Shown piece after piece: positions 27,608 through 33,768 of a DNA stretch of 35,109 nt. A model generated the notes under the pieces. That model had not been told where the DNA came from. It searched no databases and saw only the letters and a program-made list of their open reading frames with translations. The stretch's first letter is position 1; every line of letters starts with the position of its first letter. The DNA is taken from contig JAHJRQ010000001.1 of NCBI GenBank assembly GCA_018830485.1, positions 1 through 35,109 of the forward strand, in the 5' to 3' direction. Position numbers and translations under genes: made by a program. This stretch comes from Pseudomonadota bacterium. Its GTDB lineage: Bacteria; Desulfobacterota; Desulfobulbia; Desulfobulbales; Desulfurivibrionaceae.

Positions 27608-27858
27608 CAGATTGCGCTTCAGCGAATGGAGGGCTTTTGCTCCGAGGGGAGAATTGAGGCAGTCGCAGCAAGCCCAACAGCCTTGCCGGTGCCTTTCCTT
27701 GTTATGAGATCATCTGAATTCATCTTTTCATTTGCCCTGAAAATTAGTAAGAATTAGAAAACGGAAACGGCGGAGTGATCGTTCTCTTTTTCCTTATTTG
27801 TATATGGGGAGATGGTGAGCGGTGCAGCCTGCCCCCGCAACCGATATCGAGGGTTCGC

Positions 27859-29265
27859 TTGAAAGACAAGGTTTTGATTGCAAATCGGGGCGAGATTGCC
27901 CTGCGGATCATGGAAGCCTGTAAAGACCTGGGCCTGGATTATACCGTGATCTACACCGGGGCGGATGAGGAATCCGAACATGTCCGCCGCTGCCTGGACA
28001 GCCAGAGCAATGTCCGCCGGGCCTGGCGGGTATCGGCCTATACCGATCCCAACGATATTCTTTCCGTGGCGGATCACACCAATTGCACCGCCATCCATCC
28101 CGGCTACGGCTTTTTCTCCGAGGATTTCCGTTTTGCCCGGCGGGTAACCATCCGCAACCGGCCCCTGACCTTCATCGGCCCGAAATGGGAAGTGGTCAAG
28201 GATCTTGGCGACAAGATCAATACCAAGCGGGTTGCCAACCGCCTTGGTATCCCGACCATCCCCGGCACCGACGGTCCCATCTATAATGAGATGGAGGCCG
28301 AGGACATCGCCCTGCATCTCCTCGAAATCCAGGACGGCCAGAAGATCAAGAACCCCTCCATTCTGGTCAAGGCCGCTGCGGGCGGCGGCGGCATGGGCAT
28401 CGAAGAGGTCTACCAGATCGAGCATTTCCGGCGCATCTACCGCCAGGTTCAGAATTATGCCAAACGGCAGTTCGGCGACGGCGGGGTGCTCATCGAGCAG
28501 CGAATCCGCGACTTCAACCATCTTGAGGTGCAGTTGGTCTGCAGCCGGCACGGCGAGCGGGTGCATTTCGGCACCCGGAACTGCACCATCCAGAGCACCG
28601 GCCGCCAGAAGCGGCTTGAGGCCGCGCCCGGATTCGACAACTCCTGTTTTGCCTACGATTTTAACGGCCAGGAGGTGCTGGACAAGGTGGTTGAGTATTC
28701 GCTCAAGCTTGCCGCCCACGTGCGATATGACAACGTCGGCACCTGGGAGTGGATTGTCACCCGGGACGGCCAGCCCTATCTCCTTGAGGTCAACACCCGT
28801 ATCCAGGTGGAAAACGATGTCTCCGCCCGGGTCAGTTACATAAACAACAAGCATCCCAACCTCATCCGCGAGCAGATCCGGCTGGCGCTGGGCGACAAGA
28901 TGGGATACAGCCAGAAAGATATCGCCTCCCGGGGCGCGAGCATCGAGTTCAGAATCGTTGCGGAAGACACCGCCCGCGGCTTTGCTCCCTGGATCGGAAC
29001 GATCTCCAAGTTCTCCTACCCAAAATACGATTGGTCCGCGGTTTACAGCCATGTGCCCACCGACCGAACTTACGCGATCCCCAGCGAGTATGACCCCAAT
29101 CTGGCCCTGGCCTTGGTTTGGGGCGACACCATGGAGGAAGCCAAGGAACGGGGGCGGAAATTTCTGGCTGAGGTGGCCATCGAAGGCAGCAACGCCGCAG
29201 GAGGCCAGATCATGACCAACCTCCCTTATCTTCAGGAAAACATAGCCCGACTGCTCACTTTTTGA
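27859..29265 (+). CDS. accC: Biotin carboxylase, divergent (acetyl-CoA carboxylase)
   Basis: The enzyme carboxylates carrier-bound biotin with ATP and bicarbonate. The 468-residue product shows ANRGEIALRIM (8-18), AIHPGYGFFSED, the glycine-rich ATP loop KAAAGGGGMGI (171-181), HLEVQ (His221), GRQKRLEAAPG (Lys251), GTWEWI (Glu297 region), LEVNTRIQVEND (Glu310, Asn312, Arg314, Glu318) and EFRIVAED (Arg366). Residues needed for catalysis are thus kept, but nearby blocks differ from E. coli AccC: IQVEHPVTE is IQVENDVSA and ERDCSxQRR is TRNCTIQST. The TTG at 27859 is chosen for GAGGG 5 nt upstream and because the family N-terminus starts there; a GTG 28 codons upstream is less likely. The carboxyltransferase gene follows after 21 nt. 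Confidence 0.88.
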   Translation: MKDKVLIANRGEIALRIMEACKDLGLDYTVIYTGADEESEHVRRCLDSQSNVRRAWRVSAYTDPNDILSVADHTNCTAIHPGYGFFSEDFRFARRVTIRNRPLTFIGPKWEVVKDLGDKINTKRVANRLGIPTIPGTDGPIYNEMEAEDIALHLLEIQDGQKIKNPSILVKAAAGGGGMGIEEVYQIEHFRRIYRQVQNYAKRQFGDGGVLIEQRIRDFNHLEVQLVCSRHGERVHFGTRNCTIQSTGRQKRLEAAPGFDNSCFAYDFNGQEVLDKVVEYSLKLAAHVRYDNVGTWEWIVTRDGQPYLLEVNTRIQVENDVSARVSYINNKHPNLIREQIRLALGDKMGYSQKDIASRGASIEFRIVAEDTARGFAPWIGTISKFSYPKYDWSAVYSHVPTDRTYAIPSEYDPNLALALVWGDTMEEAKERGRKFLAEVAIEGSNAAGGQIMTNLPYLQENIARLLTF

Positions 29266-29286
29266 TGAGTTACAGGTGATCACTTT

Positions 29287-31542
29287 ATGGAAGATTTACG
29301 AAAGCGGCTGCTCAAGATAGAAGAACGCATCAATTATCTGAGCCAGATCAAGGACGGCGTCGAGTGGGGGAATCTCTCGGGCCTGCGCGAAAAAATCGTC
29401 ACCCTGCGGGACAAGTTCTACGACTATACCGAGGACCGGTTGTCCGAGGAAATCAGGGCACTGGAGGAATCCATCTCCTTTTTGGAGGTCCGCTGCGAAG
29501 AAACCCTGACCTCCATGGACCGGGTGCGCATTGTCCGCAACACCCACCGGTTTTCCCTGAAGGACATCCTTGAGAATGTCTACGAGGATTACACCGAACT
29601 CGGCGGCGCCGAAGAGGTCAGCATCGACCCTTCCATGGTCGCGGCCAGGGCGAGCATCATGCGGCGGGTGAAAAACAAAACCGTCATGCAGCAGGTCATG
29701 GTCATCGGCCACGAGAAGGGGCATGGCGAGGAATACCGCAACGGCGGCTGCAGCAAGCCCTGGGGCAACGAAAAGGCCCTGCGCTACATGAAGGTTGCCG
29801 AAACCGAAGGCATTCCCATCCATTTCTATATCTTCACCCCAGGGTCTTTTCCGGTGGAGGATTATCCCGGCGCCGGCCAGCAGATCGCGCGCAATCTCTA
29901 CGCCATGGCCAAGTTGCGGGTGCCGATGATTTCCGTCACCTCGGAAGGCGGCTCCGGCGGGGCCGAGGCCGTGGGCATGGCCGATGCCCGGCTGATGTTT
30001 TCCCACGGCTACTACTCGGTCATCTCCCCGGAGGGCGCGGCCGCCATCGAGGGCAAGATCCGCGAGGGCGAGAAGATGCCCAAGGAGCTGGTGGAGGCCT
30101 GCGCCGAAAATCTGCACATCACGGCGGCGGAAAACCTTACGCTCGGGACCATCGATCGGATTGTCCATGAGCCGCCCTTGGGGGCAAAACGGGACGATTT
30201 CGGTTTTTTCCGGCAGCTCAAGAGCGAGATCATCCGGGCCACCGACGAAGTGGTGCTGAAAACCAAGAGCCTCCGGGCTTTTCGCGCCTATGAATTGACG
30301 ATGAAGAAGTCAGAAGGGCAGGCCGTGGAGGAACCGCATATCGAGATTTCCTGGGACCTCAACGAGGACGAGGTCAAGCGGCTGCTCAGTTACCGTTCGA
30401 AAAAATACCGGAGCATGTCCTGCGCGGCCTATTCCGAAGAGAGCTCCGCCTGCTCCGTTTTCTGCCGGAAGGCAAAAAAGAGTATTGCCAAACTGTATTA
30501 CAGCTTCCGCTATGATCTGCTGAAAACCCAGCAGAAGCAGGTGAAAAAGGTATTTCAGGATGTTTCCGGCGAGGGCTCGGTGCTGCTCAGGCAGGTTTCC
30601 TCTCCGATCACCGCGGCGTATGATTTTATCTCGAAAAAGCCCGGCGTACGTCCGGGCAAGTCACCTGTTTCCTCAAGCGGCGTCGGGGAAGACCCCATTG
30701 AGTTCGGAGATGTCTATACCAGCCCGCTGGCCAACGAGGACCGCACCGTAACTTGCCCCAATACCGAAAAGCAGGGATGCAAGGACCTCTGGGTGCCCGA
30801 CCTCTACGGCGAATTCGGCGGGGTCTGCGAAAATTGCGGCCATCATTTCCCCTTGGAATATCAATGGTATCTCAAGCATCTTTTTGATCCGGATTCCATC
30901 CGGGAATTCAATGGAGGGGTTTGCGCGGGCAATCCCCTGGCCTATCCGGGCTTTGAAAAGAAATTGCAATCCGCCGTTGCCAAAACCGGGCGGAAAAGCG
31001 GCATCATCACCTTCGACGCCACGGTTATGGGCGTTGATCTGGTGGTGGCCATGCTGTACAGCGATTTCCGCAACGGGACGGTGGGCTCCGCCGAAGGCGA
31101 AAAATTCGTCCGGGCCTGCGAGGCTGCCAAGCTGAAACGGCGGCCCCTGCTCTCCTATGTGCACACCACCGGCGGCATCCGCATCCACGAAGGCACCCTG
31201 GGCGTGGTGCAGATGCCCAAGTGCACCATGGCGGTGCGGGAATACATCGACTCCGGCGGGTTGTACATCGTGGTCTACGACAACAACTCCTATGCCGGGC
31301 CGGTGGCGAGTTTCCTGGGCTGTTCGCCGTATCAGTTTGCCATCCGCTCAAGCCGGGTCGGCTTTGCCGGGCCGCGGGTTATCCGCGACACCACCGGAGC
31401 GGATATTCCGCCCGATTACCACAATGCCCGCAACGCCCTGCAACGCGGCCATATCCAGGGCATTTGGGACCGCCGTGAGTTCAGGCGCAATCTCCATAAG
31501 TCCCTGCTGACCATGGGCGGCGGCAATCTGTATTACCGATAA
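29287..31542 (+). CDS. Acetyl-CoA carboxylase carboxyltransferase, alpha-beta fusion
   Basis: This 751-residue protein carries both carboxyltransferase halves, which would move the carboxyl group from biotin to acetyl-CoA. Residues about 1-340 are AccA-like: EKALRYMKVAE, FTPGSFPVEDYPGAGQQIARNL, TSEGGSGGAEAVG (218-230) and YYSVISPEG (242-250). After a Lys/Cys-rich linker (about 360-470), residues 480-751 are AccD-like: a zinc ribbon with Cys490, Cys498, Cys514, Cys517 (C-x7-C...C-x2-C, first spacing wider than the usual CxxC), HTTGGIRIHEG, GPVASFLG and GFAGPRVI. The order alpha-beta is opposite to the beta-alpha fusions known to me from some other organisms. It lies 21 nt after accC. Confidence 0.88.
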   Translation: MEDLRKRLLKIEERINYLSQIKDGVEWGNLSGLREKIVTLRDKFYDYTEDRLSEEIRALEESISFLEVRCEETLTSMDRVRIVRNTHRFSLKDILENVYEDYTELGGAEEVSIDPSMVAARASIMRRVKNKTVMQQVMVIGHEKGHGEEYRNGGCSKPWGNEKALRYMKVAETEGIPIHFYIFTPGSFPVEDYPGAGQQIARNLYAMAKLRVPMISVTSEGGSGGAEAVGMADARLMFSHGYYSVISPEGAAAIEGKIREGEKMPKELVEACAENLHITAAENLTLGTIDRIVHEPPLGAKRDDFGFFRQLKSEIIRATDEVVLKTKSLRAFRAYELTMKKSEGQAVEEPHIEISWDLNEDEVKRLLSYRSKKYRSMSCAAYSEESSACSVFCRKAKKSIAKLYYSFRYDLLKTQQKQVKKVFQDVSGEGSVLLRQVSSPITAAYDFISKKPGVRPGKSPVSSSGVGEDPIEFGDVYTSPLANEDRTVTCPNTEKQGCKDLWVPDLYGEFGGVCENCGHHFPLEYQWYLKHLFDPDSIREFNGGVCAGNPLAYPGFEKKLQSAVAKTGRKSGIITFDATVMGVDLVVAMLYSDFRNGTVGSAEGEKFVRACEAAKLKRRPLLSYVHTTGGIRIHEGTLGVVQMPKCTMAVREYIDSGGLYIVVYDNNSYAGPVASFLGCSPYQFAIRSSRVGFAGPRVIRDTTGADIPPDYHNARNALQRGHIQGIWDRREFRRNLHKSLLTMGGGNLYYR

Positions 31543-31546
31543 GGCG

Positions 31547-31995
31547 AAAGGTCAAAGGTTCAAGGCTAAAGGGCAGATGCTTTGGGGGAGAGGAACTTGC
31601 CGGTGCCGCAGGCTTTTGAGGACGTTGAGGTCTGGAAGCGTTCAGCCCGCTTGAGTGCTGAATTGTACTAGACGTTGCGGGAATTATGGGATTTTGGCTT
31701 TCAGGATCAGATTACGCGGGCGGGGCTTTCCATTCCAAGCAACATTGCGGAAGGCTTTGAAAGAGAATCGATAAAAGAGAGTATTAATTTTTTCTCATAT
31801 GCAAAGGGTTCTGCGGAGAACTTCGCACCCAGATATACATTGGCGTGAACATCGGTTATATCGAAAACCAGAAAGGCAAGGAGTGGCGGCAGGAAACCGT
31901 GGAAATATCCTCGATGCTTGCCGGGCTGATAAAAGCACGGCGCAGTTTCCTGCGGGAAGATGAATGAGACCTTTGGCCTTGTACCTTTAACCTTT
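31547..31995. mobile_element. Putative small element with AAAGG inverted repeats and a decayed four-helix-bundle gene
   Basis: A 26-nt repeat at 31547-31572 returns inverted at 31970-31995 with 23 of 26 bases matching; both are made of AAAGG units with a 6-7-nt period, and the right copy continues with one more unit to 32003. Between them lies a broken four-helix-bundle gene. The element separates the carboxyltransferase stop (31542) from the carrier gene start (32014). It leaves that start with a pyrimidine-rich upstream region and no Shine-Dalgarno. No transposase or clear target duplication is visible, so mobility is inference. Confidence 0.55.
31597..31967 (+). pseudogene. Broken four-helix-bundle (23S IVS/S23-type) protein gene
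   Basis: Translation from a TTG at 31597 gives PQAFEDVEVWKRSARLSAELY, then TAG (31669-31671), then continues TLRELWDFGFQDQITRAG, LSIPSNIAEGFERESIKE and NFFSYAKGSA. There a single-base loss near 31818-31822 shifts the frame. The next frame reads ELRTQIYIGVNIGYIENQK and continues to TGA at 31965-31967. The LSIPSNIAEGFER and AKGS-ELRTQ blocks are the hallmark of the four-helix-bundle family first known from intervening sequences in 23S rRNA genes and related to Avd of diversity-generating retroelements. With one stop and one frameshift the gene is a pseudogene. Full length would have been about 122 residues, as usual. Confidence 0.85.
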
Positions 31996-32013
31996 AACCT
32001 TTCCTCATATATC

Positions 32014-32661
32014 ATGACTGACGAAATAGATTTCGACGCAATAATTGGCAAGTATCGTTCCGATCCTTTTGACTATCTGGACGTGCGGACCAGCCACACA
32101 GGCCAGGTTCGGTTCCGGGTGAAGGAAGGCGCCGAGGTTGAAGGGCCGTCCGGCGAGTGGCATCATCTCCGGGGCACCTTGCTCTATGAACTGCTGCGGG
32201 AGGGAAACCAGAAGAAGATCTTTTCCTCGAGCAACGGAGTGGTTTCCTTTATCCGCAGCGACCTGGAAGGGCAGTTCGTCGAAGCGGGCGAAAAGATCCT
32301 TACCATCCGGCATCCGTTGAAGAAACGCGAGATCATCGAGAATATCCTCCGTCAGGTGCTGGAGCCCTTCAACGCGCCGGAACGGGCCAAGTATTTCTTT
32401 TCCCTCGACCTGCAAGCCAAGATCGACAAGCACGGCCAGCGGGGAGTCTCCATCAAGCCCGGGGACGAGATCCTCACCATGTCCCTGATGAAGCGCGATA
32501 CCCCGGTCTATTATGCCGGGGAGCCGGGGATCATCCATTCCGTGTATTTTCAGCCGGGGGTCAGCGTTTCCCAGGGCGAGCCGCTGCTGGGCATCTGTTC
32601 CCAGGAAAAGCTGCCCATGATCCAGAAGATCATCGCCAGGGTCAAGGCGGAATGGGAGTAA
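32014..32661 (+). CDS. Biotin-carrier-like protein of the carboxylase locus
   Basis: This 215-residue protein probably carries biotin for the neighbouring carboxylase. Residues 140-195 align with a biotinyl domain: GVSIKPGDEIL, then SLMKR with Lys160 where the usual motif is EAMKM, then GEPGIIHSVYFQPG and VSQGEPLLGI. An earlier stretch (73-99, GVVSFIRSDLEGQFVEAGEKI) looks like the second half of another hammerhead domain without its own lysine. A helical segment lies between. The ATG at 32014 starts the conserved part (MTDEIDFDAI). An upstream ATG at 31960 would read through the AAAGG repeat and is rejected. No Shine-Dalgarno is visible, apparently because the element at 31547-31995 replaced the native upstream region. 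Biotinylation is inferred. Confidence 0.75.
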   Translation: MTDEIDFDAIIGKYRSDPFDYLDVRTSHTGQVRFRVKEGAEVEGPSGEWHHLRGTLLYELLREGNQKKIFSSSNGVVSFIRSDLEGQFVEAGEKILTIRHPLKKREIIENILRQVLEPFNAPERAKYFFSLDLQAKIDKHGQRGVSIKPGDEILTMSLMKRDTPVYYAGEPGIIHSVYFQPGVSVSQGEPLLGICSQEKLPMIQKIIARVKAEWE

Positions 32662-32792
32662 CCGTCCAGCAGCACCGCATCTGCTTCGCAGTCTCGCTCT
32701 GCGCTCGCTTAGCTGTCATCGGCCTGCTCGTGTGCACTAGCACACTTCGCAGGCCTCTTCCGCGCATCTGCGGCACTGCTGAACGGTTACTC
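32656..32792. repeat. 137-bp nested palindromic element
   Basis: Outer arms GAGTAACCGT (32656-32665) and ACGGTTACTC (32783-32792) match perfectly. After one mismatch CAGCAG pairs with CTGCTG, and after two more CCGCA pairs with TGCGG. In the centre GGCCTGC (32721-32727) pairs with GCAGGCC (32749-32755), and GTGTGC (32730-32735) with GCACAC (32740-32745) around ACTA. The left arm contains the carrier gene's TAA. No gene lies in the 180-bp gap before birA; it looks like a REP/MITE-type repeat. Confidence 0.75.
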
Positions 32793-32841
32793 TTTTGGGG
32801 CTGTTTGAGTCTGTTTTTTGATTTTGGTTACATAAATACCA

Positions 32842-33768
32842 ATGGTTGAGCCTCTTTCCTTTTCCGCCGTCCGACAACGCATCTCCGAAGAGGAGATTCC
32901 TGCCCGTCTGCTTCGCTATCCCGCCGAAGTCGTCCATGCCGTGTACCGCTATGGCGCGCCGGTGGGCAGTGTCATTCTTCATCTGCCCCAGGCCCAACGG
33001 CTGATGCCCCTTGCCCGGCAACGGATCAACGAATTTGAGGCCAGCGGCCAATCCTGCCCCAGCGGCATGGTGTTTCTCGCCGATGAACTCACCGATGGCC
33101 GGGGCCGGTTCCAGCGCTCCTGGCATGCGCCGACCGGTGGCCTCTGGCTGACCCTGGTCATGGCCAACACCCTGCTGCCCGAGAGCATGCGCCTCTATCC
33201 CCTCGCTGCCGGCATGGCCTGCTGCGAGGCGGTGCGGAGTTACGGCATCGATGCGCGCCTCAAATGGGTGAACGACGTGCATGTGGCCGGGCGCAAGATC
33301 TGCGGGGTGCTCTGCGAATCGTTTGCCAGCGCCGTCCACGGCGAGGAATATGTGCTGATCGGGGCGGGGCTTAACATCAACAACCTGGCCTTTCCCGCGG
33401 AGTTGGGGGCAACAGCGGTGTCCATGAAGGAAATCCTCGGGCGCGATACCGACCTTGCCGGTTTTGCCGCCCGGCTGCTGGCTAAATTTTCCTGGAACTT
33501 CGGCCTGCTCTGTTATGACGAGGCGCAACGGCTGGCTGCTGACGACGGTTCCGGCGCGGATCTGTCGGAGAGCCTGCTGCTTGGTGCCTGGCGGGAGCAG
33601 AGCGATACCGTGGGCCGCAGGGTCTGGTTCGGTTTTGATGTTCAGCAGCAGCCCCAATATCAAGCCGAGGTGCTGGGGCTTGCCCCGGACGGCGGCATCA
33701 TCCTCCTCCATCTTGAAAGCGGGGCGGAGATCGTCGAACATTCCGGGGAGTTGTTGTATATCGATTGA
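32842..33768 (+). CDS. birA: Biotin--protein ligase (BirA-like), no HTH domain
   Basis: The 308-residue protein would make biotinyl-AMP and attach biotin to the carrier. It has the ligase motifs DGRGRFQRSWHAPTGGLW (the biotin loop, normally GRGRxGRxW), LKWVNDVHVAGRKICGVLCE (KWPND-type with catalytic lysine) and IGAGLNINN, then a small C-terminal SH3-like domain. The N-terminal 65 residues show no helix-turn-helix, so it is unlikely to repress transcription as E. coli BirA does. Its position beside accC, the carboxyltransferase and the carrier supports a dedicated ligase for this divergent carrier. No Shine-Dalgarno precedes the ATG; a palindrome separates it from the carrier gene. Confidence 0.88.
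   Translation: MVEPLSFSAVRQRISEEEIPARLLRYPAEVVHAVYRYGAPVGSVILHLPQAQRLMPLARQRINEFEASGQSCPSGMVFLADELTDGRGRFQRSWHAPTGGLWLTLVMANTLLPESMRLYPLAAGMACCEAVRSYGIDARLKWVNDVHVAGRKICGVLCESFASAVHGEEYVLIGAGLNINNLAFPAELGATAVSMKEILGRDTDLAGFAARLLAKFSWNFGLLCYDEAQRLAADDGSGADLSESLLLGAWREQSDTVGRRVWFGFDVQQQPQYQAEVLGLAPDGGIILLHLESGAEIVEHSGELLYID

Follow-up and report, generated by a model that had tools for sequence, protein, structure and literature searches.

Organization of the locus

Fatty-acid synthesis is entered through acetyl-CoA carboxylase (ACC), which in bacteria is a textbook four-subunit enzyme. The locus described here lies in a 35,109-nucleotide stretch of DNA (i.e. the window; positions 1 to 35,109 of contig JAHJRQ010000001.1, assembly GCA_018830485.1) from a Pseudomonadota bacterium of the Desulfobulbales, whose assembly comprises 2.89 Mb in 26 contigs with a completeness of 97.9%. 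Four genes, encoding a biotin carboxylase (BC), a single-chain carboxyltransferase (CT), a carrier protein and a biotin protein ligase (BPL) of a clade termed here ACC-type, follow one another in that order on the plus strand (Table 1). This single-strand arrangement had been proposed in an earlier note made from the sequence alone and was confirmed from the reading frames of the window. The protein identities proposed in that note were in accord with the Pfam and NCBIfam matches.

Table 1. Features of the carboxylase and ligase locus (positions in the window)
Feature	Position	Strand	Remarks
Biotin carboxylase (BC) subunit	27859..29265	+	468 amino acids from TTG 27859; Pfam Biotin_carb_N, CPSase_L_D2, Biotin_carb_C
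Single-chain carboxyltransferase (CT), AccA-like alpha before AccD-like beta	29287..31542	+	751 amino acids
AccD-type zinc finger of CT, C-x7-C ... C-x2-C, residues 490, 498, 514, 517	30754..30837	+	
Carrier protein, 215 amino acids, two biotinyl-like domains, TMSLMKRDTPV	32014..32661	+	
Carrier domain 1, residues 19-102, hairpin R62-[EQ]-x-N65-x-K67	32068..32319	+	biotinyl/lipoyl-type fold without lysine
Carrier domain 2, residues 117-196, biotinyl domain with MKR	32362..32601	+	PF00364 at residues 143-193
Lys160 codon (SLMKR), predicted biotinylation site	32491..32493	+	M159 K160 R161 invariant, 55/55 aligned
ACC-type biotin protein ligase, 308 amino acids	32842..33768	+	BPL domain 2.8e-16
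Ligase R53-L54-M55 replacing the S-T-N biotin-ring loop	32998..33006	+	position 1 R in 37/38 ACC-type
Ligase KWVND, residues 141-145, replacing KWPND	33262..33276	+	V/I in 38/38 ACC-type

Biotin carboxylase and single-chain carboxyltransferase

The BC frame is open from a GTG at 27775 and the earlier note had placed its start at TTG 27859. TTG 27859 is a tentative start, as the homologous match begins exactly at its residue in eight loci of the order and earlier in others. For the alignments of BC and CT, length or score filters dropped 3 of 74 and 8 of 77 sequences, respectively (i.e. fragments and a sequence of family f11; window counted). Residues K147, K199, H249, Q278, K279, E325, E338, N340, R342, Q344, E346 and R393 of BC (numbered from 27775) were invariant in all 71 aligned sequences; in E. 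coli AccC these residues have catalytic or biotin-binding roles. The altered loop motifs of BC singled out earlier proved to be conserved in the aligned homologues with the known catalytic residues still kept; the glycine-rich loop GGGGMGI carried Met in 70/71 sequences, [RK]QKR was found in 70/71 and QVE[NS], where QVEH is usual, in 71/71.

In the CT, an AccA-type domain (residues 31-324, 7e-57) precedes an AccD-type domain (residues 512-740; TIGR00515, 3e-46) within one chain, in agreement with the alpha-beta order read from the sequence before. An invariant EGGSGGA, the motif [GA]GIRI and the four zinc-finger cysteines were present in 69/69 aligned sequences. Undivided CT frames of 739-840 amino acids were observed in all 35 uncut loci among 40 regions from a phylum sample (see below). 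The alpha and beta domains are separated by a linker of ~150 residues (CT residues ~340-485; 30304-30741), which gave no Pfam match at E <= 0.001.

Two features of heteromeric ACC were found, namely an AccC-type BC with intact catalytic residues and a CT of AccA and AccD type with a zinc finger. The locus represents a variant of bacterial ACC for which no earlier description was found; it is not filed under the canonical four-chain type because separate AccA and AccD chains, a feature of bacterial heteromeric ACC, were looked for and a single chain was present instead. The features of propionyl-CoA carboxylase (PCC), i.e. a fused BC-carrier and a PCC-beta CT, were absent, as BC and carrier are encoded by separate genes and the matches to AccA and AccD are far stronger than those of PCC type. 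By sequence, the best solved relatives were 2-oxoglutarate carboxylase and other BCs for the BC, the separate AccD and AccA of 2f9i for the CT, and 1wnl, from Pyrococcus horikoshii, for the ligase.

The locus thus resembles the canonical heteromeric ACC (AccA, AccB, AccC, AccD) in its AccC-like BC, its AccA-/AccD-type CT with a zinc finger and its separate carrier, but differs in its AccA and AccD, which a long linker joins into one chain, its two-domain MKR carrier, the Met of its BC glycine loop and, in most lineages, a ligase of its own. The ACC of Chloroflexus aurantiacus is likewise a bacterial ACC with fused parts; according to the available part of its description, however, BC is fused to the biotin carboxyl carrier protein (BCCP) (PMC11077971), whereas BC and carrier are separate here. 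A term search of that text returned no word beginning 'Desulfo'. A chain of PDB entry 9kkm, for which the organism is not stated, is named AccADCB and so has A before D as here, by name only.

A two-domain carrier with a lysine-less first domain

SLMKR in place of EAMKM, as noted earlier for the window carrier, was confirmed and its MKR found to be invariant (Table 1), with Ser at position -3 in 50/55 aligned carriers. MKR was present in 73 of the 74 carrier pieces collected, the exception being the front half of the frameshifted carrier of locus L034. SLMKR was unaltered in the order-level carriers shown, among which the L034 carrier is split by the frameshift and that of L027 contains masked bases. 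PF00364 matched 55/55 carriers at E <= 0.01 (3.6e-6 for the window carrier), and HlyD-type barrel-sandwich families of Pfam matched about half of them, lying within domain 1 in the window protein. Only weak matches (best E 0.06) were obtained with the carrier profile against PDB sequences.

An AlphaFold2 model of the carrier, built from 55 rows, contained two barrel-like domains (predicted local distance difference test score 88.3; predicted template-modelling score 0.70, as against 0.56 for an earlier, shallow model). Residues 20-99 were superposed by VIA-align on the P. horikoshii BCCP 5gua (Z 12.2, root-mean-square deviation 1.3, 70 aligned); the rows of this comparison cover mostly domain 1, so that domain 2 was hardly probed by structure, and the fold of domain 1 is not by itself diagnostic of biotin because lipoyl domains and some hydrolases also reach Z 10-11. 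The first 50 Foldseek rows were biotin-dependent carboxylases or BCCPs except for one RNA-polymerase entry, with modest E-values (best 7e-5). For profile comparison by hhalign, 30 candidate loci were filtered for MKM and an open frame; against the 15 MKM-bearing biotinyl domains that remained, the probabilities were 97.5% for domain 1 and 86.9% for domain 2.

Position 64 of domain 1, which aligns to the MKM lysine, was occupied by R in 28, G in 13, K in 10, N in 3 and H in 1 of the 55 carriers. The surrounding hairpin R[EQ]xNxK was strongly conserved (R62 and N65 in 55/55, K67 in 54/55). In domain 2, K160 lies between predicted strands 152-158 and 161-166, with MKR where MKM is usual. From the variation at the lysine site of domain 1 and the placing of Lys160 between strands in domain 2, the most plausible reading of the carrier is a biotinyl domain without the lysine in front of a working one, and Lys160 is the predicted site of biotin attachment. 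Domain 1 was rejected as a second biotin site, its lysine position not being conserved. An origin of both domains by recent duplication was also unsupported; a direct profile comparison of domains 1 and 2 gave a probability of 2.4%, though each matches canonical biotinyl domains.

Lysine motifs departing from AMKM are reported, in the accessible part of one study, for the carriers of Sulfolobus tokodaii (AMKS) and Aquifex aeolicus (ALKV), the former of which is not biotinylated by E. coli BirA (PMC3048393). The present carriers differ from these in the Arg after the lysine (55/55) and the Ser at -3, and in coexisting with a second, canonical ligase and carrier.

The ACC-type ligase

The ligase passed TIGR00121 with 102.8 bits against a cut-off of 83.1. 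Its earlier description as a BirA-like ligase without a DNA-binding domain was upheld, since the BPL domain was matched (Table 1) and no helix-turn-helix family was reported at E <= 0.001 in Pfam or NCBIfam. In a tree of 79 ligases (two rows identical), 38 ACC-type ligases were split from 41 others with support of 100/100; the 41 others were drawn from the best PF03099 loci and extra fetched regions, not from all 70 carrier genomes described below. A second ligase of family f53 (L270) matched neither ligase query and is in no ligase table.

Ligase sites are given in E. coli BirA numbering. The equivalents of G117, R118, W123, D176 and K183 were invariant in 38/38 ACC-type ligases. S89 was replaced by R in 37 of these and retained in one, T90 was lost in 31 and kept in seven, and Q112 was replaced by L, V, M or I in all 38, as was the Pro of KWPND by V (28) or I (10). 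The 33 canonical rows (two identical) all keep S, T, Q and P, and 31 have R118. Of the features of class I biotin ligases, the ACC-type ligase therefore has the catalytic Lys, the loop Arg, W123 and D176 and lacks the biotin-ring Ser/Thr/Gln and KWPND. It is like the class I enzyme of P. horikoshii (1wnl) in sequence family, catalytic Lys and lack of a detected DNA-binding domain, but unlike it in the replaced biotin-ring contacts and KWPND proline. The ligase probably works as a biotin ligase though it fails these two sequence features of the family. Ser92, Thr93, Gln115 and Arg119 of the Staphylococcus aureus BPL hydrogen-bond the ureido ring of biotin and are highly conserved in all species, according to the available portion of PMC5039522; the pairing of these residues with E. 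coli numbers was made in the present analysis and not by that paper.

Biotin enzymes elsewhere in the genome

The earlier note had named a complete canonical ACC elsewhere in the genome, together with a lack of biotin on Lys160, as an observation that would tell against its reading. No such ACC was found in the assembly, the sole AccA-family match being the locus itself. Biotin_carb_N matched twice, in the window BC and in a protein encoded ~3 kb from a PycB-like protein with EAMKM. The two biotinyl-domain matches were this PycB-like protein and the window carrier, the latter below cut-off, and the two ligases were that of the window and a 265-amino-acid protein with KWPND. Both bioB and fabD scored above their cut-offs.

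Distribution in the order and the phylum

The order set consisted of the regions around AccA-family matches of 36 relatives with a fused CT and the window, i.e. 37 genomes; one further relative, G034 of family f11, had weak AccA-family matches only and was not counted among them. The carrier followed the CT in 34/37; the regions of G028 and G016 stop at contig ends, and in G035 carrier and ligase are on another contig. The ligase lay within 3 kb downstream in 33 of the 34 loci with CT and carrier, and the remaining one stops at a contig end. The proposed synteny of BC, CT, carrier and, usually, ligase was thus borne out in most of the order.

At the level of the phylum, 395 genomes were sampled and carrier profile A1 found 72; two of these, matched only near 1e-3, were regarded as chance, so that the carrier was counted in 70/395 genomes and 19 families. 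BC, CT and carrier were together in 35 of 40 regions from carrier genomes; three regions were cut by contig ends and two had carrier and ligase but no BC or CT. The ligase was adjacent in 18/40. In family f12 (G035 and G387), carrier and ligase stay together, apart from BC and CT. Among the best 80 of 231 loci of a wider contig scan, the carrier was present in records of Desulfurivibrio sp. AMeS2 and Desulfoprunum benzoelyticum DSM 28570. Rather than being peculiar to one genome, the locus is the ACC-like locus ordinarily found in a substantial part of the phylum. A pseudogene or chance reading of the locus was rejected, its motifs being conserved over a phylum.

The best AccA-family match was of the fused type (1e-51 to 1e-63) in 69 of the 70 carrier genomes; G223, whose CT is cut by a contig end, had none, and some of the 70 also had extra weak matches. 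Among the 325 other genomes, 123 had a canonical-scoring AccA (E <= 1e-95), one a partial match (G279) and the rest either no match or weaker ones, which are probably CTs of PCC type and other kinds. In none of the 395 genomes did the carrier occur together with a canonical-scoring AccA among the matches listed, where a second match of fused type in a canonical genome would not appear; this mutual exclusion supports the same function for the two.

Two further observations concern the AccA family. The f11 genomes G034, G088, G124, G153, G206 and G312 (99-100% complete) had neither a fused CT nor a canonical-scoring AccA, with weak AccA-family matches only. A PCC-type enzyme may act as ACC in these six, and a similar picture was seen in many more of the sampled genomes. 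A canonical-scoring AccA (3.4e-148) at G374:C245:5041-5970 lies in a 746-amino-acid open frame, perhaps an independent fusion.

Co-occurrence of ligase and carrier

Profile A3 for the ACC-type ligase was built from 30 linked ligases only. At >= 223 bits, the ACC-type ligase was detected in 52/70 carrier genomes (17/19 families) and in 0/325 others (Fisher test, 6e-50, relatedness ignored); the next score was 169 bits. Of the 52 genomes, 36 had the ligase at most ~3 kb from the carrier and 16 had it elsewhere, i.e. on another contig or >70 kb away; mere linkage was rejected as the cause of the co-occurrence because of these unlinked cases.

Two or more PF03099 matches were present in 63/70 carrier genomes, some third matches being weak or possibly lipoate-type enzymes, and a single match in seven (G065, G076, G216, G247, G308, G383 and G421). 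By PF00364, most of the 70 genomes had a further biotinyl protein beside the carrier, often of 640-740 amino acids (i.e. PycB-like). The canonical ligase was located <1 kb from a PycB-like biotinyl domain in families f90 (8/8) and f61 (1/1), where the ACC-type ligase lies elsewhere; the motif was EAMKM in both translated loci (L275 and L279). In the window's genome, an ACC-type ligase and an MKR carrier occur alongside a canonical ligase and an EAMKM carrier, so that biotinylation is probably split into two separate ligase-carrier pairs.

Two ligases in one genome are also described for Lactococcus lactis (birA1 and birA2; PMC4861984) and Desulfovibrio vulgaris (DVU2557 and DVU1835, both putative; PMC10102598), in the parts of these papers available. 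Those parts do not mention a partition between two carrier types, and in the D. vulgaris fitness paper, on the same partial text, DVU1835 is the second putative ligase and the word 'carboxylase' is absent from the main text.

Intergenic segments

Rfam gave no match anywhere in the window at gathering thresholds. In the gap between CT and carrier (31543-32013), an open piece of 58 amino acids matches PF05635 (1.6e-15), a protein of the 23S rRNA-intervening-sequence type; interrupted by stop codons, this segment is a degenerate remnant of such a protein. A gap of ~475 bases was also present in three loci of the same genus (L029, L036 and L039), and gaps of ~45-75 bases in several others. Between carrier and ligase, 32656-32792 contains a 29-base inverted repeat with arms 83% complementary and 79 bases apart; it is perhaps a small palindromic element, and its arm sequence has no second copy in the window.

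Discussion

The four genes probably constitute this bacterium's only ACC together with its maturation enzyme, a ligase from a clade paired with the MKR carrier. The locus is most likely the genome's only ACC because no other AccA-family match was found and fabD is present. In the proposed mechanism, the ligase would activate biotin with ATP and attach it to Lys160 in carrier domain 2, and BC would carboxylate the carrier biotin with ATP and bicarbonate. The arm would then swing to the alpha-beta CT, which would make malonyl-CoA for fatty-acid synthesis from the presumed substrate, acetyl-CoA; this product is suggested by the retained catalytic residues and the single AccA-family match. Domain 1 of the carrier might, speculatively, act as a stationary dock or scaffold to which BC or CT binds. 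The canonical ligase would serve the EAMKM carrier of pyruvate carboxylase and the ACC-type ligase would go with the MKR carrier.

Several observations weigh against this interpretation. The BC, CT and carrier all score under NCBI equivalog cut-offs, with 340 bits against 597 for PRK08591 (accC), 183 against 357 for PRK05724 (accA), 158 against 317 for accD and 20 against 95 for PRK08225 (carrier). The residues binding biotin's ring in other ligases are lost in the ACC-type ligase, six genomes of the window's own order (the f11 genomes) lack the whole system, and bioB was above cut-off in only 53/70 carrier genomes. Furthermore, the ACC-type ligase is missing from 18/70 carrier genomes, i.e. 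16 of family f53 and two of f42. In f42, the only ligase detected has canonical residues throughout the tabulated sites and lies beside a PycB-like carrier (EAMKM read in G065), so that either a special ligase is not a strict requirement of MKR or a second one escaped detection. Family f53, probably Desulfovibrionaceae, had one ligase match in five genomes and more than one in eleven. In six f53 regions (L268, L269, L271, L272, L273 and L285), a ligase is near pyruvate carboxylase and has Gln at the position of E. coli BirA R118 (6/6); the pyruvate carboxylases have S[VI]MKQ where EAMKM is usual, as read from four of the regions, so that in this family neither of the two carriers nor the ligase follows the norm. 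A natural R118Q ligase is curious given that R118G is the change used in proximity-labelling BirA.

These exceptions bear on two proposals of the earlier note. A co-evolved four-protein carboxylase is well supported for the carboxylase part, with its order-wide linkage, its exclusion with canonical AccA and the absence of another ACC from the genome, but not for the ligase as a universal partner. A specialised ligase is favoured by its one-way co-occurrence with the carrier, the fully supported split in the tree, its own active-site signature and the second, canonical ligase and carrier of the genome; f42 and f53 show that it is not universal.

The same exceptions are an argument for an alternative in which the locus does encode the cell's ACC but its carrier receives biotin from the housekeeping ligase, with the operon ligase auxiliary or doing something else. 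The MKR carrier of f42 and f53 without an ACC-type ligase and the altered biotin pocket agree with this view, which we nevertheless consider unlikely, as the ligase accompanies the carrier in 52/70 against 0/325 genomes, also where unlinked, the two remain together in f12 away from BC and CT, and the equivalents of G117, R118, W123, D176 and K183 are invariant. The failure of E. coli BirA on the variant AMKS motif, reported in the part of PMC3048393 available, provides a precedent pointing the same way. A rather doubtful extension of the favoured reading is that recognition of the biotin ring by the ACC-type ligase has departed from that of other known biotin ligases and that this enzyme, with the lysine-less domain 1, defines a separate charging route, for a biotin derivative or by a new recognition mode, apart from the canonical pair.

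That the enzyme carboxylates another acyl-CoA (e.g. propionyl-CoA), malonyl-CoA being made otherwise, appears improbable. In its favour, the acetyl-CoA substrate is a presumed one, CT and BC are divergent, and the six f11 genomes of the same order lack the system, having weak AccA-family matches only. Against this, the best matches are AccA and AccD rather than a PCC-type CT, the carrier and a canonical-scoring AccA never share a sampled genome among the matches listed, and the window's genome has no other AccA-family match. Charging of the carrier with a biotin derivative in place of plain biotin would fit the changes at S89, T90 and Q112, whose S. aureus equivalents are described as hydrogen-bonded to the ureido ring and highly conserved in all species (PMC5039522, in the part available), but is very improbable given the usual conserved active-site motifs of BC, the presence of bioB in the window's genome and the canonical ligase with which f42 manages.

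Lombard and Moreira (2011) cover ACC CT-alpha and CT-beta for 16 Deltaproteobacteria; the available part does not mention this carrier, and the text contains no word beginning 'Desulfo' (PMC3199775). No description of a tandem carrier or of an ACC-type ligase was recognised in the literature searched, which was mostly judged by title and the start of the abstract. The two-domain carrier with a lysine-less first domain and the separate ligase clade with replaced biotin-ring residues, as deduced from aligned sequences, appear to be new.

A substantial part of a phylum seems to depend on a rearranged ACC whose scores fall under the cut-offs of curated family models. If true, the two-pair biotinylation would amount to a natural orthogonal labelling pair, i.e. 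the MKR carrier and the ACC-type ligase, and two pairs in one cell would allow target choice by biotin ligases to be tested. The changed ligase pocket makes the question of biotin recognition directly testable. In this bacterium and many related ones, a rearranged form of the standard enzyme probably supplies the first building block of fatty acids.

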